The notes under the pieces are model-generated. The model saw nothing but the letters and a program-made list of their open reading frames with translations, was not told where the DNA came from and did no database searches. A stretch of 45,939 nucleotides of DNA from a virus, in the IMG/VR virus record IMGVR_UViG_3300045135_003077, positions 1 to 45,939 of that record; one strand, given 5' to 3'. Shown here one piece after another: positions 3,855 through 26,667 of the stretch (position 1 is its first letter; the number at the start of each line of letters is the position of its first letter). Both the position numbers and the translations under genes were made by a program.

Positions 3855-4670
3855 ATGACGCAACTCATAGACCCCCATAAATTTACAAAAACAGTTGGCC
3901 TTTTAAGGTCATTTTTTTTGGAGAAAGGATTTGCAGAAGTCCACACCCAAAATAGATTAAGCATACTTGCCGCATGTGAAGATCCCTTCAATGTAGCAAC
4001 GTACAACTACGCAGGCCAAGTATGGCCACTGCCCCAAACCGGCCAAATGTGGCTGGAATACGAATTACTAACACGCCCCTCTGAGAAGGGGTTTTTTTGT
4101 GTCTCCACGTCCTACAGACAGGAGCCAAATGCTATTCCAGGCAGACATGACATAATATTTCCAATGTTTGAATTTGAGATGCCAGGTGACATCGACGATT
4201 TGAAGAAAATGGAATATGAACTGTGCGAATACTTAGAGTTCAAAAAACCAGAAGAAAGAAAATATGCTGATTGGCAAAAACACTACGGCATAGACGGTGA
4301 ACTCAAAGCAGAGCACGAAACTAAAATGTACGAAGAGTTTGGTTCCACGATGATCACAGACTTTCCGGAGTTTACTTCTCCGTTCTGGAACATGAGCAGA
4401 TACGAGGATGGAGTACACTCCAAGAAGATTGATGTGATACTTGGTGGCATGGAAACCATTGGTTCAGCGGAACGTTCGACTGATGTTGAGCAGATGCGTG
4501 ACACATTCCACACAATCACAGATGGTGCATACGCAAATTTACTGTATGACAAGTTTGGCAAAGAAAGAGTAGAAGCAGAACTCGAAGAGTTCTTGGCACA
4601 CGACTTCTTTCCAAGAGTTGGCGGTGGCATTGGCATGACAAGAATGATCAGTGCTCTCGACAAGAAGTAA
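3855..4670 (+). CDS. Stand-alone class II aminoacyl-tRNA synthetase-like domain (AsnRS/AspRS subclass)
   Basis: A 271-aa class IIb catalytic core with no N-terminal OB-fold anticodon-binding domain. Seen: motif 1-like GFAEVHTQ (25-32), a TGQMWLE segment like SGQLYLE of AsnRS, motif 2 YRQEP (87-91) followed by a RH..FPMFEFEMP loop, an ETIGSAERST segment like the EIIGGSQR element of AsnRS, and motif 3 GGGIGMTRM (256-264). Known relatives without the anticodon domain include asparagine synthetase A and archaeal AsnRS paralogues, so it could make Asn, charge a tRNA or modify another substrate. Its stop is only 6 bases before an unusual tRNA with anticodon GUU, which suggests a dedicated pair. Activity is inference. 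Confidence 0.85.
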   Translation: MTQLIDPHKFTKTVGLLRSFFLEKGFAEVHTQNRLSILAACEDPFNVATYNYAGQVWPLPQTGQMWLEYELLTRPSEKGFFCVSTSYRQEPNAIPGRHDIIFPMFEFEMPGDIDDLKKMEYELCEYLEFKKPEERKYADWQKHYGIDGELKAEHETKMYEEFGSTMITDFPEFTSPFWNMSRYEDGVHSKKIDVILGGMETIGSAERSTDVEQMRDTFHTITDGAYANLLYDKFGKERVEAELEEFLAHDFFPRVGGGIGMTRMISALDKK

Positions 4671-4676
4671 AACTAA

Positions 4677-4779
4677 TCTGGGGTGGTGGAATTGGTAGAC
4701 ACGCCAAACTGTTTATTTGGTAATTAGGTATACTGCAATATATTTAATTGTGTAGGTTCGAGTCCTACCCCCAGAGCCA
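4677..4779 (+). tRNA. Chimeric tRNA with GUU anticodon and a 31-base variable region
   Basis: Full cloverleaf of 103 bases with encoded CCA. Acceptor TCTGGGG/CCCCAGA, discriminator G73. D-arm GTG/CAC with GG in the loop, the sequence pattern of bacterial tRNA-Leu. Anticodon stem CCAAA/TTTGG is perfect, with loop CTGTTTA giving GUU (Asn codons). T-arm GTAGG/CCTAC with loop TTCGAGT. The variable region (4721-4751) forms an 11-bp hairpin, 4722-4732 with 4739-4749, including two G-U pairs. tRNA-Asn is normally class I with a 5-base variable loop, so this is a class II body carrying Asn features (GUU, U1-A72, G73). It is probably cotranscribed with the synthetase-like gene. Confidence 0.85.
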
Positions 4780-5711: not shown

Positions 5712-7004
5712 ATGTTAGAAAAACTGTTTGGCCTATCAAAGGCCGGCACTACTGTTAAAACGGAAATCATGGCAGGTGTGGCAACATTCTTAACGATGGC
5801 CTACATCACTGTTGTGAATCCGGCTATACTTTCAACCGAAGGTACTGGCATGGCTTTTGGTGCTGTGTTTACTGCGACAATCATTGCCGCTGTGATAGGT
5901 ACATTAATAATGGGACTATGGGCAAAATGGCCTGTGGCTCTTGCACCCGGAATGGGTCTTAACGCATTTTTTACATTTGGTGTAATCTTTGGAATGGGAT
6001 ACACATACAGCCAGGCACTTGCGGCAGTATTCATTGCAGGTTTAGTGTTTATCGGGTTGAGTGTAACACCAGCAAGAAAATACATCATCAATTCAATTCC
6101 ACGATCAATGAAATTAGGTATTGGTGCAGGTATTGGTTTGTTCCTTGCAATCATCGGCTTTAAGAATGCCGGTATTGTTGTGGACAATCCAGCAACACTG
6201 GTAGGACTTGGTGACATTTCATCATGGCCTGTGTTACTTGCAGGTTTGGGTTTTGCCATCATGGCAATCCTTGACAAACGTCAGATACCTGGTGCAATCA
6301 TCATTGGTATATTAGCAGTGAGTATCCTTGCATGGATATTTGGAGTTGCAGATATATCAGGTGTGGTGGGTGCGATTCCATCACCAGCACATGCATTCAG
6401 TCTTGACTTTTCACTTATAGCAACAGCGGGTTTCATTGGAACTGCTTTTGCATTTTTGTTTGTTGACTTTTTTGACACAGCAGGAACACTTACTTCTGTG
6501 GCAAACTTGACCGGCAAAGTTGACAAGAAAGGCGAAGTTGAAGGCATCGACAAGGCTCTACTTGCTGACTCGACTGCGACAACTGTTGGTGCATTGATGG
6601 GAACATCAAACACAACATCATACATTGAATCAGGTGCGGGCATCAAAGAAGGCGGAAAAACAGGACTGACTGCTGTCACAGTGGCAGTGCTATTTTTAGC
6701 ATGTCTGATCTTTGCTCCATTGGCACAAAGCATACCTGCTTTTGCTACTGGTCCTGCGTTGGTGTTCATTGCAACATACTTCCTACGTAATCTGAAAGAT
6801 ATCGATTGGGAAGATGTCAGTGAATACGCACCAGCCGTACTTGCGGCGATCATCATGCCATTGACATTCTCAATTGCGTATGGTATCGCTCTTGGTTTTA
6901 TCGCTTATGTGGCCATCAAAGCACTGAGTGGTAAGACAGCAGACTTGAACGGTGGCTCATTGGCCATTGCGGCAGTAAGTATCCTTTACTTCATAGCCGC
7001 TTAA
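5712..7004 (+). CDS. NCS2-type purine nucleobase permease (AzgA/PbuG-like)
   Basis: A 430-aa polytopic inner-membrane protein of the AzgA/PbuG branch of the nucleobase:cation symporters, which import hypoxanthine, guanine or adenine. Seen: about 12 hydrophobic segments, an N-terminal TEIMAGVATFLTMAY motif, the APGMGLNAFFTF motif in TM3, the LFVDFFDTAGTL motif, and GTSNTTSYIESGAGI near TM10, all typical of this branch. The gene is full length, has its own promoter and a strong terminator, and seems more GC-rich than its neighbours, which suggests transfer from a bacterium. Role (inference): salvage of purines for phage DNA synthesis. A complete transporter of this size is uncommon in phages. 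Confidence 0.92.
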   Translation: MLEKLFGLSKAGTTVKTEIMAGVATFLTMAYITVVNPAILSTEGTGMAFGAVFTATIIAAVIGTLIMGLWAKWPVALAPGMGLNAFFTFGVIFGMGYTYSQALAAVFIAGLVFIGLSVTPARKYIINSIPRSMKLGIGAGIGLFLAIIGFKNAGIVVDNPATLVGLGDISSWPVLLAGLGFAIMAILDKRQIPGAIIIGILAVSILAWIFGVADISGVVGAIPSPAHAFSLDFSLIATAGFIGTAFAFLFVDFFDTAGTLTSVANLTGKVDKKGEVEGIDKALLADSTATTVGALMGTSNTTSYIESGAGIKEGGKTGLTAVTVAVLFLACLIFAPLAQSIPAFATGPALVFIATYFLRNLKDIDWEDVSEYAPAVLAAIIMPLTFSIAYGIALGFIAYVAIKALSGKTADLNGGSLAIAAVSILYFIAA

Positions 7005-17891: not shown

Positions 17892-18374
17892 ATGGGCAAG
17901 TTGAACAACATCCACATCTTCCTACTATTTCTAATATTTGCCTCCAGGCTTTTGCCACACCCGCCAAACTTCACACCTGTGTTGGCAATCTTTAGTTTGG
18001 GCGGACATTACACTTTATTACCAGCACTTTTGGTCTACATGATGACTGATCTATTCCTTGGTTGGCACAATTTCATGATATGGGTGTATGGTTCGCTGTT
18101 CATGATTGCATACTTGCAGAGGGGACCAATAATTTCAAGTGTGATATTTTTTGTAATAACCAATTTTGGTGTGTGGACTAGTGGATGGTACGGGTACGAT
18201 CTGCAAGGATTGATCACATGCTACATCATGGCCATTCCTTTCTTTGCTAACACATTGACAAGTACGATATTATTCTATATAATGTTGAGATATGCAATTA
18301 AGAAAACTAATATCACAACTGCTAATAATCTGGCTGACTATTACATTACCGTTTTCCGCCAGAGCAGAGCTTGA
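17892..18374 (+). CDS. DUF6580 family membrane protein (ECF S-component-like)
   Basis: The 160-aa protein has about five hydrophobic segments and the HPPNFTPVLAIFSLGG motif, LLVYMMTDLFLGWHN and VIFFVITNFGVW, which mark DUF6580, a family annotated as putative transport protein and resembling substrate-binding subunits of ECF vitamin transporters. ATG 17892 is chosen because it fits the promoter; no ribosome-binding site is present. The next gene is a BtuB-like receptor, so a cobalamin- or vitamin-uptake role is a reasonable inference. Confidence 0.78.
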   Translation: MGKLNNIHIFLLFLIFASRLLPHPPNFTPVLAIFSLGGHYTLLPALLVYMMTDLFLGWHNFMIWVYGSLFMIAYLQRGPIISSVIFFVITNFGVWTSGWYGYDLQGLITCYIMAIPFFANTLTSTILFYIMLRYAIKKTNITTANNLADYYITVFRQSRA

Positions 18375-20100
18375 AATCACCATACCAGTATATTGGATCT
18401 ATCCAACAGGTCTAAGCACTTCCACAGTCAATGTGGACACGGTTTATCCAAAGGACAATTCATCTTCTGTGGTGATTGGAGATCTACTCAACACTAATTC
18501 AGCGATAACTTCCATACGTTCGGGAGGCAAAGGACAACAGACATCTGTGTTCACACGCGGAACAAATTCAAATCACACACTGTTTCTTATAAATGGTTCA
18601 CCCATAACGGACCATTCGACAACAAACGGATTGTTCGATGCAGGACATGATCCTGTTGAATATTCCTCAAGCATCGATGTTTACAAAGGATCACAGAGCA
18701 CATTTTTTGGCAATGGTGCAATAGGAGGTGCCGTAAACATCAACACAGCACCCACATTAACTGACGAAGCCACAATCACATACGGTGACAACAATACTCG
18801 TGCTGTAACAGTTCACAAGGGTTGGTGGACCAATGGAGGCAATTATTCGATCAAAGTGAATCAAGATGAATCGGATGGATACTCGGTGGTCAAGGATGGA
18901 GACAAAGATGGGTATCTTTATCAAACCATAAACTTCGACTCAGAACATTTTGTGGATACTGGCTTGATCAAAACAACACTAATTCATAGAAATTCAGAAA
19001 CAGAATTAGATGGCAGTGGCGTGGACGACACAGACTACACAGGTGATGCCAAATTCTATTTCGGACAATTGAGATACGAAGGCAACAATTGGAATTGGGT
19101 AGCAGACTTTGGCAAACATGACAGGCAATATGTTAACGGTGCTGAAATAGATGACTACGACAGCGATAACAAGCACACTGCAATCAGTTACACAGATGCG
19201 GTAGGCAGTGTGGATTACACCATAGGTACAGATCTACAATTTTATTCTGCACAGTTCGAAAACAGAGGTTCGTACAATTCAAGTGTAGATAAAAGTGCTG
19301 AAAATTATGCAACATTCATAAACGCAGATTGGGAAAAAGGCAAGTTTGTAATCAATGGTGGCATAAGACGAGATTGGAACACACTGCATGATCCTGTTTC
19401 GACATACAGATTAGGCAGTAGTTATCAAATCAATGACACACTAACATTTGTGGCAGGAACAAGCACAGCATTTAAGGCTCCAAATCTATATGAAATGTAT
19501 GGAGCAGACAATTTTGGATACACAGGCAATCCAGATCTAAACGAAGAAAAAAGTGTGACATATGAAGTTGGATTTAAATCATACGTGGAAGATAATTTGT
19601 ACACATTCGAAAGCAAGAGCATGTTGTTCGCAACGGATATTACAGATCAAATCAACTATGCCAACTCAACCTACACAAATGATACCAACGGCAAAACTCA
19701 AATAAGGGGATGGGATTTCTCCAGCAAAACAAAATATGAAAATTCCACACTTAAAGTTGGGTTCATGTATGTGTCTGCACAAGATTCAAGCAACACGCAG
19801 ATGACCAGAAGACCATGGTGGCAGGCAAACATTGGACTTGACCATCAAGTGAATGATAGATTGAACATTTGGTATGACTGGCAATACTATGGTGACCACA
19901 GAGATATTCATCCTACCACATATGCGGTAGTGGACAGAGAATATCAACATTTTACAAACGTGGGTGCTGATTATCTTGTTGGCGATAACTTACTGTTCAA
20001 GGCATCAATTGATAACATCACAAACTTGGATTTCGAAAGGCCATATGGATACAAACAACCTGAAAGAACTTTTTCTCTTTCACTCAAATATTTCTTCTGA
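18292..20100 (+). CDS. TonB-dependent outer-membrane receptor (BtuB-like)
   Basis: A 602-aa outer-membrane beta-barrel receptor, similar in length to BtuB (614). Seen: signal peptide with basic start and LLIIWLTITLPFSARA cut near residue 25; plug domain with SVFTRGTNSNHTLFLINGSP and GNGAIGGAVNINT motifs typical of BtuB; about 450 residues of alternating barrel strands rich in Tyr/Asn; FERPYGYKQPERTF near the end; C-terminal Phe needed for assembly. The start overlaps the DUF6580 gene by 83 bases but is required for the signal peptide. Substrate is inferred as cobalamin from family and neighbour. A receptor of this kind is very unusual in a phage. Confidence 0.93.
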   Translation: MQLRKLISQLLIIWLTITLPFSARAELEITIPVYWIYPTGLSTSTVNVDTVYPKDNSSSVVIGDLLNTNSAITSIRSGGKGQQTSVFTRGTNSNHTLFLINGSPITDHSTTNGLFDAGHDPVEYSSSIDVYKGSQSTFFGNGAIGGAVNINTAPTLTDEATITYGDNNTRAVTVHKGWWTNGGNYSIKVNQDESDGYSVVKDGDKDGYLYQTINFDSEHFVDTGLIKTTLIHRNSETELDGSGVDDTDYTGDAKFYFGQLRYEGNNWNWVADFGKHDRQYVNGAEIDDYDSDNKHTAISYTDAVGSVDYTIGTDLQFYSAQFENRGSYNSSVDKSAENYATFINADWEKGKFVINGGIRRDWNTLHDPVSTYRLGSSYQINDTLTFVAGTSTAFKAPNLYEMYGADNFGYTGNPDLNEEKSVTYEVGFKSYVEDNLYTFESKSMLFATDITDQINYANSTYTNDTNGKTQIRGWDFSSKTKYENSTLKVGFMYVSAQDSSNTQMTRRPWWQANIGLDHQVNDRLNIWYDWQYYGDHRDIHPTTYAVVDREYQHFTNVGADYLVGDNLLFKASIDNITNLDFERPYGYKQPERTFSLSLKYFF

Positions 20101-20974: not shown

Positions 20975-21060
20975 GCGGTCTTGGCGGAAAGGTAGACGCG
21001 ACAGAGTGTATACTTTGTGTTTGAGAAGACGTGTAGGTTCAATTCCTACAGACCGTACCA
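20975..21060 (+). tRNA. Class II tRNA, Tyr-like (GUA), unusual anticodon arm
   Basis: An 86-base cloverleaf with encoded CCA and A73: acceptor GCGGTCT/AGACCGT (G1-U72 wobble), D-arm GCG/CGC, T-arm GTAGG/CCTAC, variable arm GTTT/AGAC with GAGA loop. Anticodon arm ACAGA/TTTGT leaves an 8-base loop GTGTATAC (or a 6-base loop with an extra G-C pair). T33-GTA gives a Tyr anticodon; bacterial tRNA-Tyr is normally class II, which fits. The abnormal loop could be a real feature or decay. Confidence 0.75.
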
Positions 21061-21124: not shown

Positions 21125-22270
21125 ATGAAAAAACTTTTTATATTATTATGTGTAGGATTAATGTCTTGCACATTTACATTTGAAAACACACAGGCAAAAG
21201 ATTTGTTAGTCTTGCCACAATCCAAAGCAATAGATAATAAAAATTGTCAAAGTGAAAACTTATTTTCCATTGAAGATATCGATGCAATTTTATCACAAAA
21301 TAATTTTACTAAGATTAAAGTCTGGGGTAAAAATGATAGAGATCTCGAAGAAATAGAATTACTAGCAAAAGAAAATTTGTCACAGTATTGGGTAGAACCC
21401 AACACTTATGCAGATGATTATAAAAATTGGTTGGACTTTGTGTTCGATCAAAACAAATTCGCCATGGCCCCACATGGATCAGATGAAGGTGATCATAAAA
21501 AATTTGCAGAACATTTGATTCCTTTGTATTATGGTTACCATGCTTTGAATATGAACAAACATCTATCAAAAGATGAAAAAGAAATATTTTTGCAAAGATT
21601 GAAAGTAAGAACAGAAAAACTTTTCCGATTCATGAAATTAAGACACACTTCAATTTACAATTTATCTAAGTGCGGAAAAAATGATATTTGGACTTGTAAT
21701 AACGGTGCATACAAATTGCATTTAGTAAGAACATTATATGGAGCAACTTTCGGCAACACACACTACAATCAAGGAAAAAAGATATTCCAAATTGCAATAG
21801 ACGGACTTGCAGAAGATGGAGCATTATGGCGAGAAGCATCTAGGGGAAAATGGTCATGGATGTATTACACTCACTCGCTTAATCTATTATTGCACATATC
21901 AGAAATTTATTATCTCAATGGTGAAAATTTATACGAATATCAAAACAAACATGGACAAAATATCCATGATGCAGTAAATTTTTTAATAGATGCAATGGAC
22001 AACAATGAAATGATGTGGCAATATGCCAAAAAGAAGAAAGGCATAAATCATTATGATGATTGGAAAAATTACAAAGATTTACAACATTTAAACATTTTAA
22101 GAAATGACGGCACTGATGGATATAATGCTTGGCTTTACATTTATGCAAGTAGATTTCCAGATTCGCATAACACAAATAAACTTTTAGATAATATTACATT
22201 ACAAGATAAAATTAAATTTGGTGAGAGTGGTTTCGACACCCAATGCTTTTATCCACTAACAACACAATGA
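21125..22270 (+). CDS. Exported protein, alginate-lyase-like (PL5-type) fold
   Basis: The 381-aa protein starts with a signal peptide and a lipobox-like LMSC at residues 12-15; cleavage after AQA near 24 is an alternative. A stretch around residue 235 (GLAEDGALWREASRGKWSW followed by a His-containing helix and LLLHISEIYY) resembles the DG.L..E..RG....Y motif of alginate lyases. Helices rich in W/Y/H are consistent with an alpha-toroid. It may depolymerise host or neighbour polysaccharide. It is low-GC and has a structured RNA just upstream. Family assignment is by eye only. Confidence 0.6.
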   Translation: MKKLFILLCVGLMSCTFTFENTQAKDLLVLPQSKAIDNKNCQSENLFSIEDIDAILSQNNFTKIKVWGKNDRDLEEIELLAKENLSQYWVEPNTYADDYKNWLDFVFDQNKFAMAPHGSDEGDHKKFAEHLIPLYYGYHALNMNKHLSKDEKEIFLQRLKVRTEKLFRFMKLRHTSIYNLSKCGKNDIWTCNNGAYKLHLVRTLYGATFGNTHYNQGKKIFQIAIDGLAEDGALWREASRGKWSWMYYTHSLNLLLHISEIYYLNGENLYEYQNKHGQNIHDAVNFLIDAMDNNEMMWQYAKKKKGINHYDDWKNYKDLQHLNILRNDGTDGYNAWLYIYASRFPDSHNTNKLLDNITLQDKIKFGESGFDTQCFYPLTTQ

Positions 22271-24167: not shown

Positions 24168-24964
24168 ATCGACAGCGCCAAGCACTACTAAGCCAAGAAT
24201 ACAATCAGGCTGATGCTATTTGCATCAGTTATCCCAAATGTGGTCGCACATGGGTTAGACATGTGTTGGGTCATTATTTCCACAAACTGTATGGAGTTGA
24301 AAACACTCACAGATTAAATTCGCTGAAGGAAAATATTGGTGTAAGAAAAAAAGCAAACTGTCCACTTGTAAGTTTCACACATGATAATCATAGTTTTGCA
24401 AGTGAAATATCAAATGATGAATTCAATAGACTTGAAATAGACAAATTTATATTCCAAGAAATTTATGAGAATAAAAAATTAATATTCCTGATGCGTGATC
24501 CAATAGATGCCAGTATGAGTTACTATAAAATGTGTGTGAATATGACACAAAGATTTTCCGGGTCATATGAACAATGGTTTGAACATCCAGTGTTCGGATT
24601 AGATGCATTGGCCAAATGGTATATCATTGCCTTCGATCTTTGGCAGAAACATCCTAATTCAATAGTTCTACATTATGAAAATTTAAAACAAGAAAGATAT
24701 GAGTGGAGGAATTTAATCAAATTCACCACAAGCAAAGATGTAAACAGCGAATGGTTGAACGAGGCACTGCAAGCCAGAGATTTTGAAAAACTAAAACAAC
24801 AAGAAATGCAGGCAAAAAATATTAAAGATCCCAACAGCGACAAATTATTTGTTAGACAGGGTGGAAGAGATTATCAATTCACACTACCAGAAAATGTTCA
24901 AGATAAGATTAGAAACCATAAACAATTAGACAGGGCAAGACAATGTGTGGAATCTATGGTATAA
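24155..24964 (+). CDS. Sulfotransferase (PAPS-dependent)
   Basis: A 269-aa cytosolic-type sulfotransferase. Seen: 5'-phosphosulfate loop SYPKCGRTWVR (25-35), 3'-phosphate motif RDPIDASMSYYK from residue 114, and a C-terminal VRQGGRDYQF segment like the conserved RxGxxGdW element. It would transfer sulfate from PAPS to a hydroxyl, probably on a sugar of the local glycan. GTG start at 24155 in the junction repeat. Overlaps the next gene by 22 bases. Confidence 0.88.
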   Translation: MANDYRQRQALLSQEYNQADAICISYPKCGRTWVRHVLGHYFHKLYGVENTHRLNSLKENIGVRKKANCPLVSFTHDNHSFASEISNDEFNRLEIDKFIFQEIYENKKLIFLMRDPIDASMSYYKMCVNMTQRFSGSYEQWFEHPVFGLDALAKWYIIAFDLWQKHPNSIVLHYENLKQERYEWRNLIKFTTSKDVNSEWLNEALQARDFEKLKQQEMQAKNIKDPNSDKLFVRQGGRDYQFTLPENVQDKIRNHKQLDRARQCVESMV

Positions 24965-26667
24965 CAAAAAACGATACTCAGTTCATACATCAGTTCATCG
25001 AAAAATGCACACACAGAGGACCTGACGGTAGTGACATATGGCATGACGAAGATGTCACATTAGGTCACAATCTACTTGCTATCACATCAGAACCTTCGCA
25101 GGGCAAACAGCCATGGAAGACTCCAAAGGGCAATGTCCTTGTGTACAATGGTGAAATATTCAACTATCAAGAATTGTGCAACAAGTACCACAATCAATTC
25201 ACACCAACAACAACCTGTGACACAGAATTACTTGCATTTTTGTTGGACAGAGATCCGCAACAAACAATCAAAGAAATTGATTCAATGCACGGATTTGCTT
25301 ACTATGATAGGCAAACAAAAAAATTAATCATCAGCAGAGATCATGCAGGCATCAAACCGTTGTATTATGCCGAAACACAAGATGGTTTGGTGTTCGGCAG
25401 TGAAATAAAAGGCATGTTGGACAAGGTTCCCAATTCCAACAAGATAGATGACATAGCATCTGCTTGTATGAGTTACTGTGGAGTTAACGCAACCAATCAT
25501 TCATTGTTCAATAACATTAGGAAAGTAATGCCTGGACAAACTCTAACATATGATGTTGCCAATAAAAAATTTGCAGGTTCCAACACATACACCATTCATC
25601 CAACGAGCAACAAAAACTTGGACTTGGAAGAATTTAGGCATGAAGCACATGAAACTGTGAAGATGTCCACATTGGGCATAAGGAAGTTTGGAATGTTTTT
25701 GTCCGGTGGATTAGATTCAACTTTGGTTGCACATGAATTAAACAGTGTGTTGGGAGGATTGGATACATTTACAAATAGGATGAATCCAAACATCATCACT
25801 GACGAAGATCACAACGATGATGCCAATCATGCACGAATGTTTGCAGATGACTACAAAATGAATCACACAGAAATAGAAATTACTCCTCAAATGATGATGG
25901 ATTGTTGGGACAAAACAATGTGGTTCATGGAACAACCCGTATACAATTGGAATATGCCCATGTACTACGAAACAAACAAAAAACTTGCAGAAGCAGGCGT
26001 AGTGGTGACCATGGCCGGAGATATGGGTGACGAATTGTTGGGAGGATATCCCAAATATTGGAAGTTGACCAAACCCGAAGAAAAGATAAAATCGTGGGAA
26101 GGTCTTGTGTGGAAGTGGATGCACAGGATCAAAAGACCCGTCGAAATGAAAAGAAAGATTTCCAAAGAAGAATTACACGCAATACTGATCAAACAGATGC
26201 CACAAGAAGTTTGGAATCCTGCCGATCATGTCAATTCATACATGGCATTAGATTGTGTAACGCAAGTTCCTGAAGATTTTTTTGCAAGGAATGACAAGTT
26301 CGGAATGGCGTTCAGCATGGAAGGTAGATTTCCTTTGGCAACAAAGAGGTTTATGAGTTATTGTTTGGCTATCAATTCACAACACAAGATGGGGCAAGAA
26401 AAGTCACAAACTAAATTACCTACCAAACTTGCTTACAAAGGTGTCATGCCAGATTACATCATTAATAAAATGAAAACTGGTTGGACTGTGCCTTTGATGT
26501 ATTGGTTGAACAACAATAAAGAATTACAATCATTCATGCAATCCTACATGGACAAGAATGATTGCCTAAAAAATGTGATATCACAATCAAATCAAACACA
26601 AAAAAAGCCAAGACTTATTTCATGGATGATGCGTTCATGGGCTCAGTGTTATGATATGAGTGTTTGA
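24943..26667 (+). CDS. asnB: Glutamine-hydrolysing asparagine synthase-type amidotransferase
   Basis: A 574-aa two-domain enzyme: N-terminal Ntn glutaminase with Cys2 and the HRGPD motif, C-terminal ATP-pyrophosphatase with SGGLDST at 254-260, and GDMGDELLGGY. The length fits AsnB-type proteins. In bacteria it makes Asn, but relatives in surface-polysaccharide clusters amidate uronic acids, so the substrate is open. The 3' end overlaps a convergent gene by 19 bases. Confidence 0.88.
   Translation: MCGIYGITKNDTQFIHQFIEKCTHRGPDGSDIWHDEDVTLGHNLLAITSEPSQGKQPWKTPKGNVLVYNGEIFNYQELCNKYHNQFTPTTTCDTELLAFLLDRDPQQTIKEIDSMHGFAYYDRQTKKLIISRDHAGIKPLYYAETQDGLVFGSEIKGMLDKVPNSNKIDDIASACMSYCGVNATNHSLFNNIRKVMPGQTLTYDVANKKFAGSNTYTIHPTSNKNLDLEEFRHEAHETVKMSTLGIRKFGMFLSGGLDSTLVAHELNSVLGGLDTFTNRMNPNIITDEDHNDDANHARMFADDYKMNHTEIEITPQMMMDCWDKTMWFMEQPVYNWNMPMYYETNKKLAEAGVVVTMAGDMGDELLGGYPKYWKLTKPEEKIKSWEGLVWKWMHRIKRPVEMKRKISKEELHAILIKQMPQEVWNPADHVNSYMALDCVTQVPEDFFARNDKFGMAFSMEGRFPLATKRFMSYCLAINSQHKMGQEKSQTKLPTKLAYKGVMPDYIINKMKTGWTVPLMYWLNNNKELQSFMQSYMDKNDCLKNVISQSNQTQKKPRLISWMMRSWAQCYDMSV

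Follow-up and report, generated by a model that had tools for sequence, protein, structure and literature searches.

The IMG/VR virus record IMGVR_UViG_3300045135_003077, analysed over its entire 45,939 nucleotides (the window), encodes a 271-residue protein resembling the catalytic core of asparaginyl-tRNA synthetase (AsnRS) and, directly downstream, a tRNA with the anticodon GUU and a long variable arm. Marine T4-like phages have conserved the enzyme and the tRNA as one unit. As the two genes are almost never apart, we regard them as a dedicated enzyme-tRNA unit. A dedicated pair of AsnRS-like enzyme and tRNA is the best reading of the locus, and we hold it with moderate confidence. The features of the pair are as follows.

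3855-4670, plus strand: AsnRS-like class II synthetase core without the N-terminal anticodon-binding domain (PF00152, PHROG 29758, profile search, AF2 model, PDB fold)
4677-4776, plus strand: tRNA of class II (long variable arm) carrying the anticodon GUU, U1-A72 and G73 (Rfam RF00005, structural parse, covariation)
4686-4702, plus strand: Leu-type 3-bp D arm, GTGGAATTGGTAGACAC (same 17-mer in ordinary tRNA-Leu)
4709-4715, plus strand: anticodon loop CTGTTTA, with GUU at 4711-4713 and U37 in place of A37 (parse)
4721-4751, plus strand: 31-nucleotide variable region with an 11-bp stem (4722-4732/4739-4749, two G.U pairs) and the loop CTGCAA at 4733-4738 (parse, compensatory changes)
4777-4779, plus strand: encoded 3' CCA (sequence)

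The linkage of the two genes was examined in both directions. The viral scan returned at least 588 relatives of the enzyme; the loci studied were the best matches among those listed, and their frequencies describe the enzyme family rather than all relatives. The tRNA was present in 79 of the first 86 loci. A larger collection comprised 166 viral loci, 160 of them with at least 330 nucleotides of downstream sequence. One strict parser found the tRNA in 138 of the 160; two further loci (L246 and L248) revealed it by other parses, giving approximately 140 of 160. These tallies count sequences and not events, and contig fragments can hide distant genes. The linked genes lay on the same strand with a median gap of 23 nucleotides, and the enzymes were 66-100% identical. 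For the reverse direction, a DNA pattern was derived from the tRNA alone, independently of the enzyme. It matched at least 80 contigs, and among the matches listed the enzyme lay directly upstream on the same strand in all 78 testable cases; the remaining two of 80 contigs end 32 and 64 nucleotides upstream of the tRNA. No class II tRNA(GUU) away from the enzyme was found among the listed matches of this pattern. Thus, the original prediction of a dedicated enzyme-tRNA pair is supported: whichever gene was searched for, many marine phage contigs had both.

The pair also occurs in the cultured Prochlorococcus phages P-SSM2, P-SSM5, and P-SSM7, whose records annotate both genes separately as 'tRNA ligase' and 'tRNA-Asn'. 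In PMC3037559, 'tRNA ligase' is confined to P-SSM2 and P-SSM7 among 16 cyanophages, and Table 1 gives P-SSM2 a single tRNA. A FastTree phylogeny showed strong clustering of the tRNA-bearing phage enzymes, with 10 changes versus 50.6 in shuffles. A neighbour survey of the viral loci revealed no third gene recurring beside the pair, except a PyrE-like gene in 8 loci. One could suppose that the linkage has no functional meaning, with the tRNA gene either hitchhiking beside the enzyme or acting as a recombination site, given that PMC3037559 places cyanophage tRNA genes at recombination hot spots. We consider this very unlikely, however, in view of the reverse linkage in 78 of 78 testable contigs among the matches listed, its maintenance through deep divergence, the shared identity letters, and the full covariation described below.

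The tRNA matched the Rfam tRNA model RF00005 at 4677-4776 with 49.3 bits (E = 1.1e-7) and was missed by an ARAGORN run on the window; a structure of this kind lies well outside chance expectation. Its acceptor stem (TCTGGGG/CCCCAGA) carries the pair U1-A72 and is followed by G73 at position 4776. The 17-mer of the D arm is found letter for letter in ordinary tRNA-Leu genes of the studied loci and in no other isotype; isotypes were assigned by alignment, and the count of tRNA-Asn may be too high owing to short members of this tRNA family. The anticodon stem reads CCAAA/TTTGG, and the variable arm is laid out as in tRNA-Leu, with U44 followed by the stem and two nucleotides. Parse and Rfam match together confirmed the predicted Leu-type D arm, GUU, G73, U1-A72, and the 31-base variable region with its 11-bp stem. 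The loop has U33 but U37, the latter being a feature that the original prediction did not mention. In place of the A73 and leucine anticodon of tRNA-Leu, all relatives have G73 with GUU or GUC. The tRNA shares GUU, G73, and U1-A72 with bacterial tRNA-Asn and lacks both the short class I variable loop and the combination of U33 and A37. Bacterial Asn identity resides in the anticodon and G73; U1-A72 marks Asp-tRNA-Asn for amidation, and G1-C72 and U20a act as antideterminants (PMC9976931). The phage tRNAs have one base only between G19 and A21 and, therefore, no U20a. The conserved letters of the tRNA are thus those of bacterial Asn identity (GUU, G73) together with the Asn/Gln amidotransferase mark U1-A72, placed on a Leu-like body.

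This pattern was maintained among 101 distinct paired tRNAs. The anticodon was GUU in 99 and GUC in two, U1-A72 was present in 100, and G73 in all 101, with letters varying elsewhere. The fold of the tRNA is under selection. In 27 aligned short-arm relatives, standard pairs occupied 594 of 594 base-pair cells, and double compensatory changes affected 15 of 22 pairs, compared with no more than 4 in slid controls. Covariation extends to the variable stem, as seen in approximately 100 distinct relatives (pair 2, for example, is CG in 33, UA in 20, AU in 16, and GC in 15), so the variable hairpin does show the compensatory changes whose absence would have spoken against the original prediction. 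The length of the variable region ranged from 6 to 38 nucleotides, which weakens the case for the long arm as an identity signal and rules it out as a fixed identity element. A 3' CCA is encoded in 91 of the 101 genes and missing in P-SSM2, P-SSM7, and their close kin. Cyanobacterial tRNA genes usually lack an encoded CCA. The loss in the P-SSM2-related clade suggests an adaptation to host tRNA processing.

The enzyme is encoded by an open reading frame that runs from ATG to TAA and ends 6 nucleotides upstream of the tRNA. Its 271-residue product matched PF00152 over residues 12-268 (7.8e-15), in agreement with the predicted AsnRS- or aspartyl-tRNA synthetase (AspRS)-like core ending 6 bases before a complete tRNA. 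The protein falls into PHROG 29758 (4.7e-134), the function of which is unknown, and passed no NCBIfam cut-off, those of the AsnRS models included. A PDB profile search based on 57 relatives gave AsnRS as the best match (2xgt, 4.8e-13; 2xti, 5.1e-13), followed by weaker matches to AspRS. The AlphaFold model (AF2; predicted local distance difference test, pLDDT, 93.4; predicted template modelling score, pTM, 0.90) comprises the core only, and its top fold in the PDB was 1x54, the AsnRS of P. horikoshii with Asn-AMP (TMq 0.78). The OB-fold N-terminal anticodon-binding domain is not present, as judged by the PF00152 span and the model.

Across the 57 aligned proteins, the motif 2 arginine R88 (YRxE), the motif 3 arginine R263 (GxGxTR), and the class II ATP-binding residues were unchanged, as in the AsnRS core. 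The same was true for L67-E68 and R207. Phage-specific and cellular residues differ at many positions, but never at the invariant catalytic ones. AsnRS holds the amide of its substrate via Glu and Arg, whereas AspRS holds aspartate via Lys and Arg (PMC7387524). By alignment, the enzyme family has the Glu and Arg of the AsnRS pocket and lacks the AspRS lysine. Because it carries Leu-Glu, as does AsnRS (QLYLE), and not the Lys-Gln of AspRS (QLYKQ), the amino-acid pocket reads, from its sequence, as Asn-type.

These data bear on the possibility of a tRNA-independent asparagine synthetase, similar to AsnA or the archaeal AS-AR, that is accompanied by a travelling tRNA for codon supply. AsnA and AS-AR are likewise synthetase-like cores without an anticodon domain, and the 57-relative profile matched AS-AR weakly (3p8t, 5e-5). 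PRK06462, the curated AsnA/AS-AR model, also gave a weak match, which at 18.1 bits (E = 0.0012) was far under its cut-off of 389. The AsnRS profile match is far better, however, and the pocket letters are AsnRS-like, whereas AspRS-like ones are expected of an aspartate activator. Unlike AsnA and AS-AR, moreover, the phage copies are tied to a tRNA gene, and neither this one-to-one linkage nor the chimeric nature of the tRNA would be explained. We therefore consider an asparagine synthetase improbable.

We infer that the enzyme charges the tRNA with asparagine, since the two genes are tightly linked, the pocket is of the Asn type, and the tRNA bears fixed letters of Asn identity on a body of foreign type. 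According to this model, the enzyme would activate asparagine with ATP and load it onto the 3' end of the paired tRNA. Recognition would involve the acceptor end and the Leu-like body rather than the anticodon, and the length of the arm would not be critical. The resulting Asn-tRNA would be separate from the host pool of tRNA-Asn, and its likeliest use would be the supply of asparagine for phage translation when the host tRNA-Asn is cut or limiting. The loss of U33 and A37 could then be a means of evading the host's anticodon nucleases or modification; anticodon-nuclease escape has been argued for other phage tRNAs (PMC10264068).

The original prediction had also considered that the tRNA might be mis-acylated and place another residue at Asn codons, in line with its chimeric structure of a Leu-type body and an Asn anticodon. 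Asn179 of the enzyme is conserved without exception in 71 cellular relatives, and each of the 84 phage enzymes compared has AAU or AAC at this position. Asn codons are thus still read as Asn, and recoding at AAY codons was rejected for the enzyme gene itself. As a cell-invariant Asn is AAU or AAC in all 84 phages compared, recoding is extremely unlikely. In addition, G73 disfavours LeuRS, and the conserved letters are all those of Asn identity.

Several observations weigh against a dedicated pair that serves translation. First, the enzyme lacks an adjacent tRNA in approximately 14 distinct phages, some of them with an ordinary tRNA-Asn elsewhere. Second, U33 is absent in 29 and A37 in 89 of the 101 tRNAs (base 33: U 72, A 17, C 10, G 2; base 37: U 82, A 12, C 4, G 3), which is odd for a working AAY decoder. 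Third, two GUC (Asp) variants sit beside the same enzyme. Fourth, an enzyme with no anticodon-binding domain does not account for the retention of GUU; the ribosome or a host synthetase would have to read GUU if the objection is to be met. Finally, cellular relatives share the invariant residues, yet most have no tRNA-Asn within the locus, and no class II GUU tRNA was found in the four enzyme-carrying genomes searched whole, including the complete chromosome of Pasteurella atlantica. Several of these relatives, in unrelated bacteria, reside in cassettes with PyrD, PyrE, and PyrF.

Individual phage loci showed further peculiarities. Loci L253 and L215 and phages LR756501 and LR756508 have the enzyme without an adjacent class II tRNA and an ordinary tRNA-Asn(GUU) elsewhere in the phage. 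Phage LR756501, of 735 kb, has a structured segment directly upstream of the enzyme homologue (locus L084, 5832-5920), closed by the 7-bp helix UUGGCGA/UCGCCAA; the segment had no Rfam match and a fold z-score of -1.6. In locus L030, from a phage without the adjacent tRNA, a manA RNA motif (5925-6122, minus strand, 58.1 bits) is located directly 3' of the enzyme. Paired tRNAs with GUC, specific for Asp codons, were found in L224 (3868-3963), L234 (4859-4955), and L236 (4225-4321); they have G37 and still U1-A72 and G73.

The scan of bacterial and archaeal genomes detected relatives with 50-66% identity in bacteria of the candidate phyla radiation (CPR), DPANN archaea, Dependentiae, Midichloriaceae, P. 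atlantica, and others. Cassettes with PyrD, PyrE and/or PyrF were present in L105 (3604-6892), L096, L108, L112, L124, L134, L137, L143, L146, L157, L158, L164, and L166; in L105, L146, and L157 the neighbours were assigned by Pfam and NCBIfam. In 19 cassette-type genomes, PyrB exceeded the cut-off in 2 and did not in 17, and 16 had a match to the dihydroorotate (DHO) dehydrogenase family. PyrC was likewise mostly missing. By comparison, PyrB was detected in 14 of 14 control genomes. Weak PyrB matches in genomes G001 and G004 turned out to be ArgF-type, lying beside a carbamate kinase or in an arginine cluster. Single gene absences in the 19 cellular genomes are weak evidence because genome completeness was not given, the complete chromosome of P. 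atlantica aside. The occurrence of cassettes in genomes mostly without PyrB and PyrC makes an unrecognised route into dihydroorotate possible. In many CPR copies and in P. atlantica (L094, L095, L099-L109, L113), a terminator-like hairpin with a T run precedes the start codon of the enzyme, which could be an attenuation signal or the end of the preceding gene.

These results allow for a use of the tRNA outside the ribosome. It would be poorly read by the ribosome and would carry Asn or Asp to the phage enzyme for a metabolic reaction connected with pyrimidine synthesis. Charging could be accomplished by the host AsnRS or a non-discriminating AspRS (via GUU and G73), by GatCAB (via U1-A72), or by the phage enzyme, and the loss of U33 and A37 would then represent a release from decoding. 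Such a role is a tentative alternative. It is consistent with the cassettes of unrelated bacteria, which contain relatives with the same invariant residues, with the lack of PyrB over the cut-off in 17 of 19 cassette-type genomes, and with the DHO-dehydrogenase-family match in 16. A PyrE-like gene adjoins the phage pair in 8 loci, a PyrD-like gene lies upstream in a few, and in L263 the PyrE-like gene directly follows the enzyme, with the tRNA absent. Moreover, U33 and A37 were lost while GUU was kept, and the GUC variants retain U1-A72, the amidotransferase mark (PMC9976931). On the other hand, most pair-bearing phages have no pyr gene within the examined locus, a PyrE search among annotated phages gave no match, and the canonical T-loop suits normal tRNA use. 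Of 286 Patescibacteria genomes, 8 encode the enzyme, and all 8 are devoid of both PyrB and DHO dehydrogenase. A general pyrimidine role is not compatible with these 8 genomes, and the enzyme was rejected as a general dihydroorotate maker. The connection to pyrimidine synthesis is therefore genuine in certain lineages but missing from others.

In its complete form, this alternative states that the tRNA is an off-ribosome carrier that keeps the marks for Asn/Asp charging and amidation, sheds those for decoding, and feeds a synthetase-derived enzyme whose cellular relatives replace missing early pyrimidine steps. We consider this full version unlikely. If true, it would amount to a virus-run, tRNA-linked nucleotide metabolism. 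Within the dedicated-pair reading, the charged tRNA may serve either the ribosome or a consumption of Asn outside it. The proposal of an undescribed phage translation system stands in part. 'Undescribed' applies to the pair only, as the records of P-SSM2, P-SSM5, and P-SSM7 already annotate each gene on its own. The 'translation system' is a putative one, given cellular relatives without such a tRNA, several of them in pyrD/E/F cassettes, and the many tRNAs without U33 and A37. Overall, the original prediction is partly supported.

The pair resembles several known systems. As in PylRS-tRNAPyl, a synthetase is encoded together with its own unusual tRNA, without classical reading of the anticodon. 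In contrast to that system, the present pair has an Asn anticodon, reassigns no stop codon, and is phage-borne. With AsnRS, a class IIb enzyme, the phage protein shares the class II core with motifs 2 and 3, the Glu and Arg of the pocket by alignment, and the best profile and fold matches; it differs in its length of 271 residues, the missing N-terminal OB-fold, and a score under the NCBIfam AsnRS cut-off. Nuclease-evading phage tRNAs also have anticodon-loop changes outside the anticodon, but they lack a dedicated synthetase, and the tRNA described here is class II and chimeric (PMC10264068). By analogy, its loop changes would fit a nuclease-evading tRNA. Huge phages likewise encode translation genes, but their synthetases were described as host-related and not as an obligate adjacent pair (PMC7162821). 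Two huge phages have distant homologues of the enzyme (47-50%) with no class II tRNA adjoining. The cyanophage cluster T4-GC 194, 'tRNA ligase', is the enzyme studied here, in P-SSM2 and P-SSM7; the accessible part of PMC3037559 lists it by name only and does not discuss the adjacent class II tRNA.

A search of the open-licence literature yielded no account of the pair. Phage tRNAs and phage synthetases are known; an adjacent, tightly linked unit whose tRNA is a class II chimera with an Asn anticodon is new to the literature searched. The pair is widespread in the ocean, bears directly on the reason why phages carry tRNAs, and is testable now because it is present in cultured cyanophages. It naturally suggests itself as a candidate orthogonal synthetase-tRNA system and prompts one to ask which function the related enzyme has in pyrB-less bacteria and in CPR genomes.

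The record itself encodes the T4-type proteins UvsX and UvsY, a gp32-like single-stranded DNA-binding protein, and a UvsW-type helicase. At positions 24943-26667 of the window, an AsnB-type asparagine synthase is encoded in a glycan-type cluster with a DegT aminotransferase and a GDP-mannose dehydratase. Genes for a TonB-dependent receptor (18292-20100) and an alginate lyase (21125-22270) are located inside this T4-like phage record, representing either unusual cargo or a mixed assembly. ARAGORN reported an undetermined tRNA with the 4-base anticodon gtat at 20975-21060. The 430-residue membrane protein encoded at 5712-7004 resembles an NCS2-type permease by eye, and the label 'tail' of its PHROG is probably that of a mislabelled family.
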